This document shows, in pieces, positions 2,392 through 14,381 of a stretch of DNA of 64,000 bases. Numbering within the stretch: position 1 is the stretch's first letter; each line of letters opens with the position of its first letter. Made by a program: the position numbers and the translations under genes. A model generated the notes under the pieces. It did not search any database, was not told where the DNA came from, and saw only the letters and a program-made list of their open reading frames with translations. The stretch covers positions 372,001-436,000 of the forward strand of contig UWYS01000009.1 in the NCBI GenBank assembly GCA_900291925.1. The letters run 5' to 3'. Source of the stretch: Thecaphora thlaspeos (Eukaryota; Basidiomycota; Ustilaginomycetes; Urocystidales; Glomosporiaceae).

Positions 2392-5217
2392 ATGGCGACC
2401 GGCAACGGTGGCCAGCATGCGCCCACCTACGGCCATCTGCAGAACGCGGCCGCCCTGGCCGGACCCAATCTCTCGCTCTACACTTCTTCCCAGGCCTCAT
2501 CGTCGACGTCGTCTCTCATGGACCCTTCCAGCGAGACGAGCTCCTTCTCCGGCGGCCACAACGGCTCTTCCTTCAGCCCACACATATCCCACTTCGGCGC
2601 AGCGGGCGGCTCGGCGGCGGGCATCCGCTCCGATCGCTCCGGTCCCGGCCCCTCATCGTCCTCCTCAGGCTTCAGCTGCCCCAATTGCGGCAAGACCTTT
2701 GCGAGGGACGATCTGCTCCGCAGGCATCTGGCACGCGAGGCTCGCGCCCTTGCACAACCCTCGTTCGACCGCCAAAAGAGCTGCTACGAGTGCGCTCGCA
2801 GCAAGGCTCGCTGCGATCTCGAGGTCCCCTCGTGCGGCCGCTGCCGTTTGCGCGGCAAACATTGCGCTTATGCCCCTCGCTCCGGCAACCCAAACGTACG
2901 CAAAGCGCGGAACAGCAGCATGACACCATCGGTCTCGGGAAGCTCCATGAACGAGGCTTCCGGTATGGCCGGCATGTCGCCGATGGGAGCGGACATGGCT
3001 CATGGCGAGGTTGGCGCCGACGGCAACGGGAGCCAGGCGTGGGGGATGCACACATCGGCCTATGGCCCCGGTGCGTCCGGCTACGTCAAACGCGAGGGCG
3101 AGGCGGACTATGACAGCACCAGCGAGAGCGAGTTTGGCCGCTCGTGGAACGAGCCGTACGGCGACCGGCTGGCTCGGACAGTGTCCGACTCATCGAGCTC
3201 GGTCAACTCGAACATCGGCTCGCCGCGGCGTCACTTTGGCCTTTCCGAGCTACCGGATTCGGCCCCGGCTTCCCTGACACACTTTAGCTTCTCGCCAAGC
3301 GTGGCGCCCGGCTTCCCGCCACCCGTACGCACCGAGTCGCCGAGCTCGTACGGCGACGTCGCGATAGGGCCCTCGATGGCCGTCGGTGCAATGCACGGAG
3401 GTTCCGGTTGCAGGTCCAGCGGCTTTTCCAGAACCAATACTGGCAGCATCGTCACAAACATCAACAGGCAGAGTGCAGGCTTCGCCAACGATGAAGGCGA
3501 AGAGACCCCCATCGTCCGAGTCACCAACAGCTTTGCCCAGGCAACCGGCCTGGAGCCGCGGCACCAAGCGAACCAAGCCGCCCCCGGGCCCACCGTGGCA
3601 GCCTCACCAGACACGCGGCAAAGGACGGCGAGCTTGCCGCAGTCCGATGGTGGCGACTCCGAGATGTCGGATGCTTGGCACGACCGACCGGTTGCCCAGC
3701 GGAACATGGCCGGTCACGCCCCGAGACTCCATCCCCAAGGTTCTGGCGCACATTCCTTGATGCAGCCGCCGTCGCTGATCACTTCAAACCTCGGCCGGCC
3801 CAACGGCGGACAGATGGCGTTTCCTTCTTCGATGCGGCCATCGCTTTTCACCAACGGCCTCGACCTCTCCGGTTGGCTCGAGGAGCCGGTGGTGCCGTCT
3901 CCGCTCTACAGGAATGGGTCCGGCTTCCCACCCTATCAGTTTGGCCAATTCTCCAACATGGGAGGAATGCTGCAGTCGCCGATCATTGAGACGCCGGTCT
4001 CGGCTCGGTTTGCTGCCTCCTTAAATCAGTTCTTGGGCTCCAACCACGCCGCCAACGCCGAGATATCGACAGATGGTAACGTCGGCAACCCAGCCGCGGG
4101 GAGCGTCATTCCCCTGCCGTCCTCGAGCCACGCGGCGACCGACGCCACTGCGGACCTGGGCCGAGGCCCAAGTCGATCGCAGTCGGATCCCACTGGAAGC
4201 GTGGGCCCCGGATTCAATCAGAGCGCCAACGGGCCGCAGGGCCACGAGCTGCCGACGGCGAAGCAGTTCTGGCTCGAATCACAGCAGAGTGGCGAGATTA
4301 AGGCCTCGCTGGCCCAGCTGAGCGCGGCATGCTTCGTGTCGTTCCCTTCGTTCCTGGTTCTCAACGACCCGGCGGCGCCCTGCCCACCTAACATCCACCG
4401 ACGGTGGCTGCAAGAGTTTCGCAACACGCGGCTGTCCTTCCTTGCCAATGCTCGGTCGGTCCTGGCGGGCTACTTTGTCCGCCTGCCGGCCAGCGAGGGC
4501 TTCGTGTGGAAGTTGATCGCGGACCAGATCAAAGCCATCATCGTCGACTCGGCCGGTCTCTGCAGTAGCGAGGCGAGCGAGGTCGAGGTGCTGTCGGCCA
4601 TCTCTGCACTCTGGATGTACCTCGTCCTCCTCATTTTCACTGACGATACCGCGTGCACGCAGCATGTCGACTCGGACCTGCTCAACAGCGGTCTCTGCGC
4701 GCTTTCCGAGCTCTCGCGTAGCCTCTCGTCGAGGCTGGAAGCGAATGCGAACACAGGCGATCCTCATTCGTCGACGCGGGCGGCCGACTTTGCCTTCTTC
4801 AGCCAGGACGAGACCATCGTCCGTTGCCTGTTTGCGGCCTACTCGCTCCTCGTCCTGCAGCGGTTCCGCGAAGGCGGCGAGTTGCTCAAGAGCAAGCTGG
4901 CCGGCTGCGACCTGGTTCTGGACATCCCTCTGCCGGCGGGCGCGGCCGAGTTTGAGGCTGCCAACGAGGACGAGTGGCGAGCGACTCGGTCGAAGGCGGC
5001 CGAAGCGCTGGACAAGGCCGACTGCCCCACCCCGCGGCCGACGCTCCGCCACCTGCTCGCGGCGCGCAAGGCGGTGGACGCCGAGACTCAACAGCAGCAG
5101 CAGCAGCAGCAGCAGGCCACGCCGCACTGGATCGACGTGTACTTCGACAGTCACGACGCCTTTGCCAACGTTGTTCTCTCCATCGCATTGGCGCTCGACA
5201 TCGATCGTCTTTGAGTC
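2392..5217 (+). CDS. Transcription factor with a C2H2-like finger and a Zn(2)-Cys(6) cluster
   Basis: Single-exon, 940-residue fungal transcription factor. A C2H2-type segment begins at F94 (C96, C99, H112). It is followed at once by a canonical Zn2Cys6 binuclear cluster (C131, C134, C141, C148, C151, C158) with the usual basic spacing. Such paired DNA-binding domains are known in fungal regulators, so a nuclear, sequence-specific DNA-binding role is expected. In the C2H2 part the position expected for the second zinc-binding His is Glu116, so that finger may not bind zinc. The middle (about 170-620) is low-complexity and Ser/Gly-rich. Residues about 625-940 are helical and leucine-rich, resembling a fungal transcription-factor regulatory region, interrupted by a polyglutamine run near 900. 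The start follows a C/T-rich leader. Target genes cannot be told from sequence. Confidence 0.9.
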
Positions 5218-5873: not shown

Positions 5874-7568
5874 ATGGATGCCGTGAACGTCGGTCTGCTC
5901 TCAAGAAAGGAAACAAAGGGGAAAGCCTGGCAAAGGAGATCTGGCCGGTACAGGACGGTCGGCTCCTTCTCTTTTCTTGAAGCACGGACGAACGACCTTG
6001 GCGACGCCCCGAAACAGGGACAGCCCGTCCAGCCCGACTTCTCCACAACACGACCGGGACGATTCACGGCAATGTTTCCGTATCCCCTTCCTCCACCACC
6101 ACCCACCACCCGCTTGACGACGGCCACAACGACGATGACCACGAGAAAGCAAACCGGATTCTGGACACGGCTTGCGCATACCTTCTCCTGGCCAGTCTAC
6201 AAGAGTCAAAGTCAAGGTCACCCGGGCCATATCCGCCTATCTCTGGACACACAGGGCGGAGTTCCCTTCTCCACCCGCGATCCCACCCACCACCCCGCGA
6301 TCGGCGCGGGCAAGTGTGGCTCTCAAACAGCCGATGGCTCTCACGATGATGACGCAGAGCTCCGTCAGGGCGGTCGTAGCGGCGAGGCGGCCAAACGACG
6401 GTGCCGTCGACGTCTCCGGACCCAGTCGATGCCTGTCCTGCTGGAAAGTCCCGCTTCTTTCATGACATCTTCTTCGCCCGGTGGCGCGAATGTCGAAATA
6501 GCGTACGCGCCCAGCAACATAGTCAAGATACATGGAGGAAGCAACTACACCAACCGACGTCCCGGCGCTCCTTGCGGCAGTCGTTCGAGCAACAGCGACA
6601 GCCGACCCGACTCTCAGACGGAAGAAAAGAGAGGAGACAAGACGCGCACTCTCTCCTCCTCAGACATTCTCGATCCTTTCCACCCACCTTCGCCCCGTCG
6701 TACCGAGGGGCATCCGAGGCGTGAGGGAGAGTCGGAAGAGATACCAGATGACCTCCCCTCTACGCATTCCGACGCCCTCACACCACATCGACACCAACAC
6801 GGCGGACACTGTCTTTTTCGTCGTCAACGCGACTCGAGCACACCGAAAGACACCTCTCTGCAATCCTCACCCTCACCGTTCCGCAGTACCATCTCGAGCG
6901 AGGCCGCACAAGAACACATCGAAAAGCGACTCCTCGAAACGCTCAAACAGCTGGTGGGCAGCTACATCTGTCCACTCGAAACGCGTCTGCAGCATCTCCA
7001 CGACCAACTCAACCACCGCCACCACCACGCACCATCTTCCTCTGCTTCGCCGCACAACGAAGGGACGATCCTGGGCCACGAGAAGATAGCAAAGGATCAG
7101 GCCAAGTTGGAGTTGAGACTGGACCAGAGGTGTAAGAGTCTGTTCAAGAGGGAGGCAGAGTTAAAGTGTAGGATCGAAAGGTTCGAAGAGGAACAGATGA
7201 GGTGGAATCAGAGGAAGAGGGCGAGCGAGGCCGAGTTGCTGGTGAGGCAGTGTGCGCTCGACAGGGAGTTAAGAAGGCTTCAGCGGTCCACGACGAGCGG
7301 AGCGGGCGAGAGCGAAGAGAAGCGCAAGACGACACTGAGCGAGAAGTTTGCGGGACCATGGCAGGATCGAGAGACGGCACAACCACCATCACCACCATCG
7401 CCGCCGCCGACCAAGGGCAAAGAGAGGTTGGATGAATCCACCTTCTACCGATGCTACAGTCGCGGATCGGGTCAGGATCTAGCGAAAGCCGTCAAGGTCG
7501 ACCATCGGACCGCCTCAAACGGCGGTTCCGAGGTCGGTGAGATCAAGGGAGCTTCGACGTCGATCTAG
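5874..7568 (+). CDS. Hypothetical protein with C-terminal coiled coil
   Basis: Open frame of 564 codons with no recognised domain. The N-terminal two thirds is disordered and rich in Ser, Pro, Thr and Arg, with a His-rich stretch near 380-390. Residues about 400-480 are strongly charged with heptad-like spacing (Glu/Lys/Arg/Leu), typical of a coiled coil, ending in a run of Arg/Glu/Leu. An internal Met near residue 88, just after a Thr-rich stretch, could be the true start, because the first part is poorly structured and might be leader. The gene converges on the GatC-like gene with about 125 bp between stops. I judge it a probable gene from length and the coiled coil only. An unseen intron is possible. 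Confidence 0.5.
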   Translation: MDAVNVGLLSRKETKGKAWQRRSGRYRTVGSFSFLEARTNDLGDAPKQGQPVQPDFSTTRPGRFTAMFPYPLPPPPPTTRLTTATTTMTTRKQTGFWTRLAHTFSWPVYKSQSQGHPGHIRLSLDTQGGVPFSTRDPTHHPAIGAGKCGSQTADGSHDDDAELRQGGRSGEAAKRRCRRRLRTQSMPVLLESPASFMTSSSPGGANVEIAYAPSNIVKIHGGSNYTNRRPGAPCGSRSSNSDSRPDSQTEEKRGDKTRTLSSSDILDPFHPPSPRRTEGHPRREGESEEIPDDLPSTHSDALTPHRHQHGGHCLFRRQRDSSTPKDTSLQSSPSPFRSTISSEAAQEHIEKRLLETLKQLVGSYICPLETRLQHLHDQLNHRHHHAPSSSASPHNEGTILGHEKIAKDQAKLELRLDQRCKSLFKREAELKCRIERFEEEQMRWNQRKRASEAELLVRQCALDRELRRLQRSTTSGAGESEEKRKTTLSEKFAGPWQDRETAQPPSPPSPPPTKGKERLDESTFYRCYSRGSGQDLAKAVKVDHRTASNGGSEVGEIKGASTSI

Positions 7569-7694: not shown

Positions 7695-8201
7695 CTACGT
7701 CCTTTCGACGACAATGAACCCACCATACGTCGCGTCACCCCGCTCCTTTCCCGCGTTGCACAACAACCTCTCTCTACCCAGAACCTCTGTTCCCTCTTTC
7801 TCTACCATGTCCTCTTTGTCATCTACACCATCCTTCCACGTCTCAGACTGCGCGAGTATCCTATCGTCCTGCAGCGATTCCTCTTGAGTCTGTCTGACTT
7901 CCAACGACGTGACGGTATGAACGAGACCGACCAATTGCGTAAGACGATGCTTGATCTCTTGCATCTCGGCGACGGTCGATGGTGGAGTGAGGCAGGAAAG
8001 TCGGTAGAGCTTCAATAGATCTTCGTCGGTGAGCGAGCAAGGTGGCGTAGAGGTGGAGAGAAGTTGCCTGACGCTCCATGTAGCTTTGGTCGGGATGCAG
8101 AGATTATCCAGCGCGAGTGTGCCCGAACGGGTGCGCATCGAGCAGTTTCGTCGATTGCCCGTCGGCGACAAGCGTGAGACCGCACCGTTTCGTGTCTGCA
8201 T
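7695..8201 (-). CDS. Mitochondrial glutamyl-tRNA(Gln) amidotransferase subunit C-like (Gta3/GatC type)
   Basis: About 168 residues if read from the ATG at 8201. Residues about 35-85 contain WSVRQLL, then a short spacer, then a helix with LKLYRLSCLTPP and LTQLVGLVHTV. This is the pattern of fungal Gta3/GatC proteins, the small subunit that stabilises the mitochondrial amidotransferase converting Glu-tRNA(Gln) to Gln-tRNA(Gln). A basic N-terminus fits mitochondrial import. The gene lies 167 bp behind the ABC transporter stop on the same strand. Its ATG overlaps a good 3' splice site (the CAG at 8198-8196), so this segment may instead be the last exon of the upstream gene (see findings). The C-terminal 80 residues are charged and unlike anything I recognise. 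Confidence 0.6.
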   Translation of the reverse strand: MQTRNGAVSRLSPTGNRRNCSMRTRSGTLALDNLCIPTKATWSVRQLLSTSTPPCSLTDEDLLKLYRLSCLTPPSTVAEMQEIKHRLTQLVGLVHTVTSLEVRQTQEESLQDDRILAQSETWKDGVDDKEDMVEKEGTEVLGRERLLCNAGKERGDATYGGFIVVERT

Positions 8202-8253
8202 GTGAAGAACGAAAGAGGAAAGCACAGATAGAGACAGAACGTTAGACCCAGAG

Positions 8254-8264
8254 GGGGGGGGGGG
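8254..8264. repeat. Mononucleotide G run (C run on the minus strand)
   Basis: Eleven consecutive G on the plus strand, between the ABC transporter stop and the GatC-like start. On the transcribed (minus) strand it reads as a C tract. It would fall inside the candidate 185-nt intron at 8380-8196, about 55 nt before the acceptor. Confidence 0.9.
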
Positions 8265-8368
8265 AACGTGATGCTGAGACAGTCTATTCGGACGAAAAGC
8301 GGTGGTGCGGATGATGCAAGAATACCCAAGGGGGAAGTAGGGAAACAAAAGGGGAAACCTTGAAAGCA

Positions 8369-10882
8369 CTAGGTACGTACATCTCTCTTTGCCTGCTCCA
8401 CCGCCGCCGTCTTGGCCGTCTGCTGCTGCTGCTGTTCTTCCTCCTGCAACGCCTCCTCGCCCGCCCCAGCCTCGAGCTGGGCCGCCATCAACTTCCTAAA
8501 CCTCGTGCCTGGTCTATCGAGCTGCTCGTACGTCCCCTGCTCTACGATCCTACCCTTGTCGAGCACCTGCAGATTCTTTGCGCTCTTGATGGTGCTCAGA
8601 CGATGCGCGACGATCCATACAGTGATCTCGCCCTTTTCGATGATCTCCTCGATGGCGCGGTTGACGAGCACCTCGCTCGCCGAGTCGAGCGCGCTCGTCG
8701 CCTCGTCCAGCAGCAGGATGGACGGGTTCTTGACGAGCGCCCGTGCGATGGCGATGCGCTGCCTCTGACCGCCCGACAGCTGGCGCGCTCCGATGCGAGT
8801 CTGCAGTCCGTTCGAGAGGTCGTGGATAAAGTCGCACCCCGCCATGCGGATCACGCGCTCCACGTCTTCGCGCGTCGCGTTGTCCGTGCCGTACGTGATG
8901 TTCTCCTCCACCGTCCCGTCAAACAGCACCGGCTCCTGCGGCACCACCGCAATCGCCCGGCGCACCTCTTCCACCTTGAGCTCCCTCAGATCGCGATTGC
9001 CCAGCAGGATCCGCCCAGAGTTCGGATCGTAGTAGCGCAGCAGCAGCGCGTGCACCGACGACTTGCCCGCCCCGCTCCCACCCACCAGCGCGTACGACTT
9101 GCCAGGCTCAATGTCGAGCGTCACGCCGTTCAGGATCTTTTGTCCCGGTCGCGACGGGTAGCTGAAGTGGACGTTGTCGAAGCGGATCGGCAGCGAGTTG
9201 GTCTTGGACCGCGCCGAGGTCAGCGGCAAGCTGGAGCCGCCGGGCGACGAGGACGAGGACGAAGAAGCCGCCGGCACGGGTAGCGGCGCGCCCGAACCAA
9301 GCTGGACGTTGGACTCGCAGTCGATCAGCTCAAAGACGCGCGCCCCCGCTCCGACACCCTTCATCACGCTGGCAAAGAACGACGTCAGGCTGACCATGCC
9401 TCCGCCAAGGTAGGCCGTGTACATCAGCAGCGAGGTCAGGTCGCCCACCGAGATCTCGCCGCGGCTCGCCAGGTGGCCGCCGTAGGTGAGGAGGGTGAGG
9501 ATGGCGCAGTTGCCGACGAAACCCGTGCCGGCGTAGAAGAGGCCGCTGGCGTACGCCTCCTTGGTCTGAAGCTCGATGATGTCATTGACCTTTGCGTCGA
9601 AGCGCCGGGCTTCCTGGCGCTGCGTGTTGTAGCTCGTCAGCGTGCGGAAGGCGGGGGGCGAGAGACGCTCTTCGGCCAGCCTCGTCATGGCGCCGACAGC
9701 GTCCTGCGTCTTGTGCGTGAGGTCGCGCAGGTATCGACCGTAGAAGACGGCGCCGATGGCGGCGGGCGGCACGACGGCCATCATGAGCAGCGTCAGCTTC
9801 GACGAGAGGAGGAACATGGCCGTGCCGGCAAAGATGACGGTGACGCCGGCGCGCAGGCCGTCGCCGATGTCCGAGGTGAGGGCGTCGCCGACAATGTTGG
9901 TGTCGACGCTGAGGCGACTGACGGTGTCTCCGGCCCCCTTGTCGGCCAGCTCGACGTCCTGCCTGAGCGCGCTGCGGTAAGCCTGGCCGCGGATGCCCTG
10001 GACCACGCGCACGCCGGCCAGCTCGAGCAGGATGTTACTCCCGGCCTTGGCTCCGGCGCCGATGGCAAACACGAGAAGCATGCCGAACGCGACGGTCCCG
10101 AAGCTAAAGCCAAAGAGGCTCGACTGTCCCGATGTGAAAAAGTCAATCACCCTGCCGATGGCGGCGGGGATGGTGAGCGAGATGCACGACGAGACGAGCA
10201 AGAGGCCGAGAGCGATGAGCATCGTGCGCCGCTGTGGCATGGCGAGCGCGAAGAGTCGCTTCATATCGGGGAAGTTTGCGGTGGGCGTGGGCGATGTCTC
10301 GCCATCTTTTGTCTTTGGCGCCGACTTGGCCATCTGTTCCTGGAGACGTGTCTTGATCGCGTTTCCGAGGCGGGCGGCGAGCGATGCTGACGAGGACGAG
10401 GAGGTGGATGCCTCAACCTTGCTGGCGGCCGTATCGACGGCGTTTTCGGCGTCTTCCAGGGTCGACTGCTGGGTCGCCTCTTTGGCGGCAGGCCGAGGCG
10501 GTGCGTTGGGGACGTTTGCTGCGGTCTTGCTGGAGCGCGCATTGGAGCTGTTGGCTCTGCTGCTGGAGGAGGCGGCGGCAGCGGCGGCGATGCGAAAGAG
10601 CTGTGAGAGGCGGAGCAGACCGAGCTGGCGCGTTGAGGTCGATGCGGCGGTGGGGGTGGTGGTGGTGGTGGTTGTGCGGAGGGTGGAAGCGGTGGTAGGG
10701 CGGGCTAGATGGCGAGCGAGCTGCGAGTAGCGCCTGGATTGCTGTCGCTGGAGGAGCGTGGTCGAGGAAGCCAGTGCGATGCTGCGATGACATGTGGATG
10801 ATGCGGCGCTGTGACGGAGGAGGCCTAGGAAGGCGGTCGATGGGCCTACGAGGCGCATCAAGGGTGCGGCGACGGCGGACAT
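8369..10882 (-). CDS. Mitochondrial inner-membrane ABC transporter, half-size (Mdl1/ABCB10-like)
   Basis: 837 residues. The first about 130 residues are rich in Arg, Ser and Ala with almost no acidic residues, a typical mitochondrial presequence, followed by a low-complexity linker. A six-helix ABC transmembrane domain spans about 205-500. The nucleotide-binding domain has Walker A GGSGAGKSS near 602, signature LSGGQRQR near 700, Walker B ILLLDEATSALD near 720 and the H-loop His in VAHRLST near 757. One TMD plus one NBD means it works as a dimer. Relatives in the yeast Mdl1 class export peptides from the matrix or act in stress resistance. The C-terminus has a Gln run and then AKRDVRT before a TAG that sits inside a GTACGT splice-donor-like sequence, so the final residues may be replaced by splicing into the GatC-like segment. 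Confidence 0.9.
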   Translation of the reverse strand: MSAVAAPLMRLVGPSTAFLGLLRHSAASSTCHRSIALASSTTLLQRQQSRRYSQLARHLARPTTASTLRTTTTTTTPTAASTSTRQLGLLRLSQLFRIAAAAAASSSSRANSSNARSSKTAANVPNAPPRPAAKEATQQSTLEDAENAVDTAASKVEASTSSSSSASLAARLGNAIKTRLQEQMAKSAPKTKDGETSPTPTANFPDMKRLFALAMPQRRTMLIALGLLLVSSCISLTIPAAIGRVIDFFTSGQSSLFGFSFGTVAFGMLLVFAIGAGAKAGSNILLELAGVRVVQGIRGQAYRSALRQDVELADKGAGDTVSRLSVDTNIVGDALTSDIGDGLRAGVTVIFAGTAMFLLSSKLTLLMMAVVPPAAIGAVFYGRYLRDLTHKTQDAVGAMTRLAEERLSPPAFRTLTSYNTQRQEARRFDAKVNDIIELQTKEAYASGLFYAGTGFVGNCAILTLLTYGGHLASRGEISVGDLTSLLMYTAYLGGGMVSLTSFFASVMKGVGAGARVFELIDCESNVQLGSGAPLPVPAASSSSSSSPGGSSLPLTSARSKTNSLPIRFDNVHFSYPSRPGQKILNGVTLDIEPGKSYALVGGSGAGKSSVHALLLRYYDPNSGRILLGNRDLRELKVEEVRRAIAVVPQEPVLFDGTVEENITYGTDNATREDVERVIRMAGCDFIHDLSNGLQTRIGARQLSGGQRQRIAIARALVKNPSILLLDEATSALDSASEVLVNRAIEEIIEKGEITVWIVAHRLSTIKSAKNLQVLDKGRIVEQGTYEQLDRPGTRFRKLMAAQLEAGAGEEALQEEEQQQQQTAKTAAVEQAKRDVRT

Positions 10883-11546: not shown

Positions 11547-14381
11547 TTACGTCCCTTTCGCCACGGCGCCACCAGCACTTGCGTCCGCACTCGTCTTGCA
11601 CCGTCCACCAGCAGCCGTCACAACCAGCGGCTTGGGCTGCAATTTTTTCGTCGGCGCCGATGTAGTCTTGACCACCACCACACCCGCGCGCGCTCCCGTG
11701 GTCGCCGTCGCTTTTGCCGTCGCCGTTGCTGACTTTATCGCCTGGTTGGCCGTCGCTGTCGCTTGGATCGGTTCAAGCGGTTTGGACGTCGATGTCGTCG
11801 CTTTCGTCGACCCGCTCGTCACCGCCGCCGCTGGCTTACGCGGTGCTGAGACTGGAGCGCTCGATTTCCCTGCGGCGTCGGGCTCCTTGGCGCTCGTCGT
11901 CGTCGTCGTCGTCGCAACTTTGCTGCTCGCGTCCGCCTTGCTAGGCTTGTCTGCCTTTGACGAGGCCGCTGCGGCCGTGCTTGAAGCCTGGCCCGTTCGC
12001 AGCGACGCAGATGGTGCAGACGCCGTGCTCGTTGAAGAAGCAGCAGCAGCGACAGCAACGGAAGATGAAAACGACGACGACGACGACGACGATGCGGCGG
12101 CTGATGCTCGTAGTGCCGAAGCCGTCGTTCTGCCGGTCGCCGAAGGCGTAGCTCCTGGCTTGACGCTGACCCTCACCGCCGACGTCTTGCTAGGCAGAGC
12201 GGGTCGCGTGGCAGGTACGCGCGATGCCTTGATAGACTGCCCCTGCCTGGCGGCACTCTGCGAGCATCGACCTGCCTCGCTCGATGAGGTTGCGGCAGTG
12301 GTAGTGGGGCCATTAGAGGAAGACGACGACGAAGAGGCTTCATATCTGCCCTCACGCTCGTCTGACGCAGTGTTGCTGATAGCCACGTCGTGCATCTTTA
12401 GCAGGTGTCGCTGCTGGGCTTGCACCAGCCTGTCTGCTACGCCGTCGCTCGGAGCCGCTCCACGACTGGCCTCGGCGGCGTTTGCTTTTGACGACAACGA
12501 CGACGCCGTCGGGGGCGAAGGGCTGAAAACATCCTGCTGTTGCTGGTGTAAGAGCCACCCGCCGCCGCCGACGGGGTCGCAAGACGGAGCATCGTCGGAT
12601 TGACTCCTCGTAGGTACGGGCTTGTCCATCCACGGTCGACCGTCGCCGCTGCTCTGGACTTCCGTCTGGTTCGGTGACACTCCCACTGCCGCCGAAGCCG
12701 AAGCAAGACTGCCTAGGTCAGGGTGCGAAGAGGCCCGCAGGTGCTCGCGGCTGAAGGCGTGGCTGTATGCTGCTAGAATTTGGCTCCGGCCGTGAAGGCC
12801 GGATGCAGCGGCAAAGGAAGAGATCGGTGCGCTGCTGGTCGAACTGGCGAGGTGCCTCGAAGCCGGCGTCGTGGAGGGACCGAGCGAGGCCGAGAACGGG
12901 TTCGGGTGATGCGACCCTGCCGGCGCCGCGGCGGTCGTCGGCATGGACGAGACTGATGCCGAGAGCGTAGAAGAAGGGTGTGGCGGTGGGTGTAGAGGAT
13001 TGGAGAGCGCAGCGCTGCGACTCGACACCGAGACTCGTAAATTGGGATTGAGCGTCGGCGGTGCCGGCTCTGGCTCCTCGATCCACCGCTTCGCCCGCCG
13101 TGATGCCAACAGAGGCAGCTCAAACTCTCTCGTCCGTTCGTGCCGACCGCCCTCCGCAAGCATCGCTGGCGGCGCACGCATAGACGACGATGACGACGAC
13201 GACGCCGCCGAAGAGGTATCCTCCTGCATCTGTGGAGTGCCTCTCGACGCCCTGAGCTGCTGCTGCGACCGCACCGCTGCAAGCTGCTCGGTGAACAGGG
13301 TCCGCTTCAAGCTCGACGACACGGGGAAAGCGGCCGACTCCAGCGCACCGTGTTCGCGGTGGCGGTCGGTCGGTGTTGCGCTATGCTCGACCGTCGAGGG
13401 GGTCGGCGTGGTGGCCGCCATCCTCTGTGTTGGCCGGGACGACGAAGATGCCGATGCAGGGCGAGATGAAGGTGGCGGTGGCGCTGCTGCTGCTGCCGTC
13501 GCGGCCTGGATCGGTACGTCGACGACGAGTGCGCCCGTCTTTGGCAGGGCGAGGTACCGCCGGATAGTGGGTGTTAGCGGTTTGATGAACCTGCGGTGAA
13601 AGGAAAGGCAAGCGAAGGTGGCCGCGACGATCGAAGTCAGCGTCAGCGTTGGCGCCTTCATCGAGACATGCCGTCCGTATTTTGCCGCTCCGCTGTTGAC
13701 TCACGATTCAACCCTCTCGGGCCACATTGCAATGTAAAGCTCAAAGACCTTTTTCGTGATCTGCCTGACTTCGGGGTTGGAGTCGGTGGCGCCGCCCTTG
13801 ATGCTCGTCTCGATGTCTGCGATCTTCCTGCTCAGCTTCGCCCTCTCCGTTGCTTCGAGCAGTGCGAGGATACAGCCCATAGCGACCGCCCTCAACCCCT
13901 GTCCCTTGTCCTTTGCCGCCTCCCTGAGCAAGGGTAGGAGCGAGGGGAGCTTGCAGTGTTTGCAGATGAGCAGTAGGCTCTTTTCCGCCCTCTTTACGGC
14001 GACCTTGTTCGTCCTGGCGCAGATAAGGAGTAGGGTGGGCACAAAGATCTGGACGAGGGCGTCAAAGCGCTCGACGAGCCTTGGCGCGACCGAATTGATG
14101 AGGTCTCCGGCCGTACCAGAGAGGCGCGTGCGCTCCGAGAGGAGAGAGTTGTTGATGGGCTGCGAGAGCTGCTTGAGGTACGGGATGTACTCGGGGAACT
14201 TTGTGGCGCCGCCCTTTGTGATGGCCTGGAGGCGTACTAGGGCCTTTTCGAGCTTCTGCCATGTGTCCTCGGTCTCGGGGATGGAGAGGTCGTGCTGCAG
14301 CTGCGCAAAGTGGCTGGTAAGATCGGCGAGCGTCGAGACGGCGATCTTGGCGTCCGGCGGATGGCGGGATGAAGGAGGCAT
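11547..14381 (-). CDS. CLASP-family TOG-domain protein (microtubule-associated), two exons
   Basis: Joined from exon 14381-13705 and exon 13590-11547, giving 906 residues. The 114-nt intron (13704-13591) has donor GTGAGT and acceptor TTTCACCGCAG, and the frame is kept through a split Ser codon. Residues about 10-235 form a helical-repeat domain of CLASP N-terminal/TOG type (signs: KGGATKFPEYIPYLKQL, LRAVAMGCILALLE, KKVFELYIAMWPERVE). The last helix continues across the junction into FIKPLTPTIRRYLA, which supports the splice. TOG domains bind tubulin, and CLASPs stabilise microtubules at kinetochores, the spindle midzone and the cell cortex. The remaining about 670 residues are Ser/Ala/Thr-rich, basic and disordered, suited to lattice binding. 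Only one TOG domain is seen, whereas most fungal CLASPs are longer with several, so this is a short form or paralogue. Confidence 0.8.

Follow-up and report, generated by a model that had tools for sequence, protein, structure and literature searches.

Within a 64,000-nucleotide stretch of the Thecaphora thlaspeos genome (contig UWYS01000009.1, positions 372,001 to 436,000; hereafter the window), two frames on the minus strand are, by protein comparison, almost certainly the exons of a single fused and spliced gene. The first exon encodes an ATP-binding cassette (ABC) half-transporter of the Mdl1/ABCB10 type and the second a GatF-type amidotransferase subunit (Table 1). As a whole, the locus probably encodes a spliced tandem precursor that is imported and, once in the matrix, divided into Mdl1 and GatF. 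In this scheme, the primary transcript would be spliced at 8380/8196, which would remove a stop codon and join the inner-membrane half-transporter to the amidotransferase subunit. An N-terminal presequence would then direct the chain to the inner membrane, leaving the nucleotide-binding domain on the matrix side. The linker would act as a second, internal presequence cut in the matrix by the mitochondrial processing peptidase, MPP (and Icp55), and the freed GatF would join GatA and GatB. Sequence comparison supplies the fusion in relatives, the homology to both parts, both identities and the relatives' linker motif; splicing in this species, topology, cleavage and function we infer.

The fusion is supported primarily by relatives of the transporter. 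The best 120 of the 287 proteins found in a protein search with the transporter part were all examined. Identity to the query delimits a Ustilaginomycotina block of 69 proteins (P0002-P0069 and P0071), and the other 51 form a less similar outgroup. Tails were scored with a profile built from the C-terminal tails of 12 relatives, with the window left out, and tails shorter than 20 residues were not scored and were counted as non-fused. The transporter and the tail occur in one protein in 27 of the 69 block relatives (E < 1e-6; the profile included 12 of these), and the same profile and threshold detect the tail in none of the 51 less similar proteins. The alignment of full tails starts in the linker and extends through the terminal VV-[D/E]-R-T. 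The window's joined tail matches the profile with an E value of 1.9e-31 (106.0 bits), while none of the 640 other open reading frames (ORFs) of the window and none of 1000 shuffled sequences was listed up to E 10. A fused gene, one of three possibilities raised in a preliminary description of the locus, is thus strongly supported, with the same transporter and the same tail found as a single protein in close relatives and full tails aligning to their last residues.

Named carriers of the fusion include Pseudozyma hubeiensis, Sporisorium scitamineum, Kalmanozyma brasiliensis, Moesziomyces antarcticus and Violaceomyces palustris, as well as Exobasidium rhododendri, Jaminaea rosea, Sympodiomycopsis kandeliae, Tilletiaria anomala and four Malassezia. 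Jaminaea rosea belongs to the Exobasidiomycetes, Violaceomyces palustris to the Ustilaginomycetes and Malassezia pachydermatis to the Malasseziomycetes; judged from these proteins, the fusion is spread across the subphylum Ustilaginomycotina, in three classes. Five Tilletia proteins (P0034, P0036, P0037, P0038 and P0041) are without the GatF tail and Tilletiaria (P0039) carries it, so the fusion may be absent or lost in Tilletia. Near the end of its chain P0038 has a V-S pair, and the other four Tilletia proteins have neither V-R nor V-S there. All relatives came from the transporter query. When the GatF part (66 candidates) or the tail of the fused chain (1690 candidates) served as the query, nothing was returned at E <= 0.001; the GatF query gave no close smut protein, which suggests that no stand-alone smut GatF protein has been deposited.

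Both parts of the chain are assigned by homology. The transporter ORF (10882-8369) encodes 837 amino acids, in which the Pfam scan places a single ABC transmembrane domain ahead of a single nucleotide-binding domain, and mdl1 is the given name of several of its relatives. In a search of solved structures, ABCB10 (4ayw_A) aligns over transporter residues 187-802, and full ABCB1-type transporters score higher. Members of the Mdl1/ABCB10 family reside in the inner mitochondrial membrane, their nucleotide-binding domain facing the matrix. The window's gene shares with these half-transporters one transmembrane and one nucleotide-binding domain and a long N-terminal region, and unlike them it carries a second protein at its C-terminus.

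For exon 2, the Pfam scan lists GatF (E 2.9e-6) and Gta3 (E 0.0056) and does not list GatC. Precomputed Pfam annotation gives Gta3 or GatF in five relatives (P0023, P0024, P0027, P0030 and P0033), and ten relatives' tails scanned singly match Gta3 in eight cases, GatF in six and GatC in four (E <= 0.01). Among 24 aligned proteins, one of them from the window, 14, 10 and 5 match these families, respectively, at E <= 0.1. Compared with 177,635 PDB sequences, a profile of the ten tails has its best match in yeast GatF (4n0h_F, E 4.1e-4, positions 59-176 of 178) and its second-best in a bacterial GatC (3h0l_C, E 1.6e-3), with the third match at E 0.58. The tail thereby resembles both GatF/Gtf1 of the yeast GatFAB complex and GatC of GatCAB; yeast GatF is a separate protein, whereas here it forms the C-terminus of a transporter. 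An AlphaFold model of the tail has a confident helical core at residues ~51-100 (mean predicted local distance difference test score 68.4, predicted template modelling score 0.43). By these profile matches the tail is GatF/GatC, the third subunit of the mitochondrial tRNA amidotransferase. The GatC/Gta3-like label of the preliminary description is refined to GatF, the better Pfam match of exon 2. In intron-blind searches of the genome in which the best candidates were scored, the GatF profile, the Gta3 profile and the protein itself each match one place only, and the same searches found no second GatF copy. GatB is present on another contig, and GatA was not singled out among eight amidase-family matches.

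At the junction, recomputation confirmed the transporter ORF and its stop TAG at 8371-8369. It also reproduced the GTACGT donor at 8380 and the acceptor CACATGCAG ending at 8196, which delimit 185 nucleotides in phase 0 on both sides, and the joining of AKRD to TRNGAVSR into a stop-free chain of 1000 residues. Two details of the preliminary description required correction. The stop does not lie inside the donor, being nucleotides 10-12 of the intron, directly after the GTACGTAC octamer; and the C tract before the acceptor is present but consists of 12 C rather than 11. An open chain is obtained from 20 of the 55 possible GT..AG pairs near the junction, so in-frame joining alone is not rare. 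Pair 8380-8196 tops the 20 open pairs on the relatives' tail profile. Pair 8401-8196, which combines the same acceptor with another donor, is second with 105.9 bits, and with a difference of 0.1 bit the profile cannot pick between the two donors. Donor 8380 is the only GTRNGY donor among the candidate pairs, and acceptor 8196 is the only candidate with a CTRAY site at most 70 nucleotides upstream. Readthrough of the stop was also considered and was rejected, because 185 is not a multiple of three and a ribosome that passed the TAG would enter exon 2 out of frame.

The proposed cleavage is drawn from the linkers of relatives. These were counted in 23 full linkers, with P0006 left out along with P0012, P0016 and P0020, whose tails are without the linker block. 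The published Icp55 cleavage consensus R-x-[FYIL]-[SA]-[ST] (PMC8847149; this and the other papers are cited here from excerpts) occurs in 15 of the 23 linkers, compared with a mean of 0.58 and a maximum of 4 in 2000 shuffles. A widened motif, in which H, M and V are also allowed and which was widened after the linkers had been viewed, occurs in all 23 (shuffle mean 1.07). The remainder of the linker varies among relatives while the cleavage-like motif is conserved, and 14 of the 23 linkers contain no methionine. The conserved motif and the methionine-free linkers together point to a chain that would be synthesised in one piece and then cleaved in the matrix at a presequence within it. On these alignments, cleavage of a tandem precursor is more probable than a lasting connection of the two parts.

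Several results weigh against a spliced and cleaved fusion at this locus. On the tail profile, exon 2 read from its ATG scores 99.7 bits and the unspliced frame 98.5 bits, compared with 106.0 bits for the joined tail; such near-equal scores, joined or not, mean that the profile reflects the identity of exon 2 more than its joining. In a rough splice-site model built from 254 kb of the same genome with a noisy training set, the scores of the 8380 and 8196 sites are reached by 17% of GT and 22% of AG sites, and in the candidate set of the model itself 22 of 23 donors and 18 of 23 acceptors equal or exceed them. The first 150 nucleotides of exon 2 show no coding bias in its frame. With unremarkable splice signals and no early coding bias in exon 2, the case rests on homology. 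The window's GatF (28.0 bits, cut-off 33.4) and Gta3 (17 bits, cut-off 27) matches are both below the curated Pfam scores, and the top two Foldseek matches of the tail model, 9a62_B (an entry titled GATA-GATC, E 0.59) and GatF 4n0h_F (E 0.72), are not significant. The window's own linker is without the R-x-Y-S-T cleavage motif of its relatives, which makes the cut a weaker proposition in this species. Finally, the nearest annotated relatives, Pseudozyma flocculosa, Thecaphora frezii and Ustilago trichophora (P0002, P0003 and P0005), are modelled without the GatF part. The P. flocculosa protein is the closest of the best 120 of 287, with 79.6% identity over 834 residues. These three transporter models are perhaps incomplete. 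The T. frezii model is cut within the linker; its tail contains RRSFTTS, which resembles the linker motif, and this tail matches the tail profile weakly (E 0.0012).

The ends of the non-fused proteins bear on the age of the intron. The P. flocculosa model ends in QRDVRT, compared with KRDVRT for the window's unspliced frame. Phase 0 donors such as GTNCGN and GTGAGT translate to V-R and V-S, and one of these pairs lies within the last 12 residues in 28 of the 37 non-fused block relatives whose tail has 5 or more residues (mean 7.55 and maximum 15 in 1000 shuffles), compared with 6 of 48 outgroup proteins. Five block proteins without any tail were left out of these counts. In 9 of 22 clusters formed at 90% identity (13 of 31 at 95% and 6 of 16 at 85%), the last V-R or V-S has a single residue after it, as it does in the window; the same is seen in 2 of 51 outgroup proteins. 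The first stop falls at that codon in none of 23 noisy candidate introns of the same genome. With the relatives' intron positions deduced from protein ends, the intron seems old. Because the one-residue ending recurs in relatives relative to the outgroup and the genome's introns, the early stop may have been retained for a function: it could end a transporter-only isoform or mark unspliced RNA.

These endings are also what would be expected of a splice switch, in which retention of the intron gives the transporter alone with a V-R-x end and splicing gives the fusion, thereby setting the ratio of transporter to GatF. Such a switch would be compatible with the tandem precursor as an added layer and is possible, if doubtful. 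It is favored by the frequency of V-R and V-S ends and their one-residue spacing in block relatives, and excerpts of PMC4207609 describe C-terminally extended isoforms that fungi produce through splicing and readthrough. However, the early in-frame stop may merely mark unspliced RNA for decay, 9 of the 37 non-fused relatives lack a V-R or V-S end and the rows are related to each other. Nor is the switch general, as P0023, P0024, P0027, P0029 and P0030 are fused with linkers of 57-73 residues, close to the 67 of the spliced window, so that a retained intron has no evident place in them, and the sources of these five (lgn, jgi) also hold truncated rows. The spliced case among the fungal extended isoforms is reportedly the GAPDH of U. 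maydis. A subphylum-wide switch on two levels is somewhat unlikely; in it, the donor of a conserved intron would also supply the end of the transporter frame (V-R-x-stop), and this intron would decide between the transporter alone and the tandem precursor, which is then cut. If it were true, the formation of mitochondrial glutamine-tRNA would be tied to an inner-membrane exporter through splicing and stoichiometry in smuts and Malassezia.

An unlikely alternative to the cleaved precursor is a fusion that stays uncut, with GatF holding the entire amidotransferase against the inner membrane on its matrix side and perhaps coupling the charging of tRNA with stress signalling or the export of peptides. 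Retention of the fusion in three classes and the missing motif in the window's linker fit this arrangement, but the conservation of the cleavage-like motif in otherwise variable linkers does not, and the known tandem precursors examined are reported to be cut: MPP cuts Arg5,6 inside the chain (PMC8847149), and import of S. pombe Rsm22-Cox11 is followed by its cleavage (PMC12375894). Two closely packed genes, with the transporter ending at 8369 and GatF starting from the ATG at 8201 under its own promoter in the 167-nucleotide gap, agree with the stop in place and with ATGs at 8201 (inside the predicted intron) and 8138 followed by a presequence-like N-terminus, but are very improbable given the fused single chains in relatives, the 14 methionine-free linkers, in which a GatF start from a linker ATG is impossible, and the donor-like ends common to relatives.

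The proposed tandem precursor resembles S. pombe Rsm22-Cox11 and S. cerevisiae Arg5,6, in which two different mitochondrial proteins are made in one chain and for which internal presequence-like and MPP-type sites are reported. As proposed here, one part of Rsm22-Cox11 is described as an inner-membrane protein while the other stays in the matrix. The present gene differs from both in its partners, an ABC transporter and GatF with the membrane part first, in the stop-containing predicted intron at its junction and in its subphylum-wide spread; its cleavage is predicted. In the fungal peroxisomal isoforms of Freitag et al. 2012 (cited via PMC4207609 excerpts), a stop codon is likewise avoided to extend the C-terminus, but these gain a peroxisome signal, whereas here a whole enzyme subunit would be added. 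No description of an Mdl1-GatF fusion was found among the matches listed in the open-licence literature.

The proposed gene would explain where the third amidotransferase subunit is located in many Ustilaginomycotina, namely behind a transporter and lost from gene models that stop at the intron TAG. It would add a new partner pair to the few known tandem mitochondrial precursors, and a subunit of mitochondrial translation would then depend on how an inner-membrane transporter is expressed, imported and perhaps spliced. The anchoring of fungal GatFAB to the inner membrane, a question raised in PMC4027206, is touched on as well and becomes testable.

Table 1. Features of the predicted fused gene in the window (residue numbers refer to the fused chain).
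Feature	Positions	Strand	Basis
Exon 1, Mdl1/ABCB10-type ABC half-transporter, residues 1-834	8381..10882	-	Predicted mitochondrial location
RRYS, residues 50-53, presequence cleavage-like motif in N-terminal targeting region	10724..10735	-	Motif seen, putative function
ABC transmembrane domain PF00664, residues 221-494	9401..10222	-	Pfam E 4.6e-48
ABC nucleotide-binding domain PF00005, residues 584-730	8693..9133	-	Pfam E 1.9e-32
Predicted intron, 185 nucleotides, GTACGT...CAG, phase 0	8196..8380	-	Sequence signals, homology
TAG reached on intron retention; transporter then ends ...KRDVRT	8369..8371	-	ORF translation
CTAAC branch-like site, starting 50 nucleotides before intron end	8241..8245	-	Motif
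Exon 2, linker and GatF-like subunit, residues 835-1000, with stop	7695..8195	-	ORF, profile, alignment
Presequence-like linker stretch, 29 residues without D/E, 6 Arg	8109..8195	-	Composition, proposed role
Pfam GatF (PF20977) match, 28.0 bits, curated cut-off 33.4	7842..8087	-	Pfam scan

Other frames lie on both sides of the fused gene. Convergent with it is a candidate frame of 564 amino acids at 5874-7568 (+), which has no Pfam match and ends ~126 nucleotides from it. A frame of 940 amino acids at 2392-5214 (+) contains a Zn(2)-Cys(6) cluster (E 1.1e-5), preceded by a C2H2 finger that scores below the cut-off. On the same strand as the fused gene, a low-complexity frame of 704 amino acids at 11547-13661 (-) has no Pfam match, and just upstream of it a CLASP N-terminal domain (Pfam E 8.9e-29) occupies its own frame at 13701-14381 (-); the two are possibly parts of one spliced CLASP-like gene.

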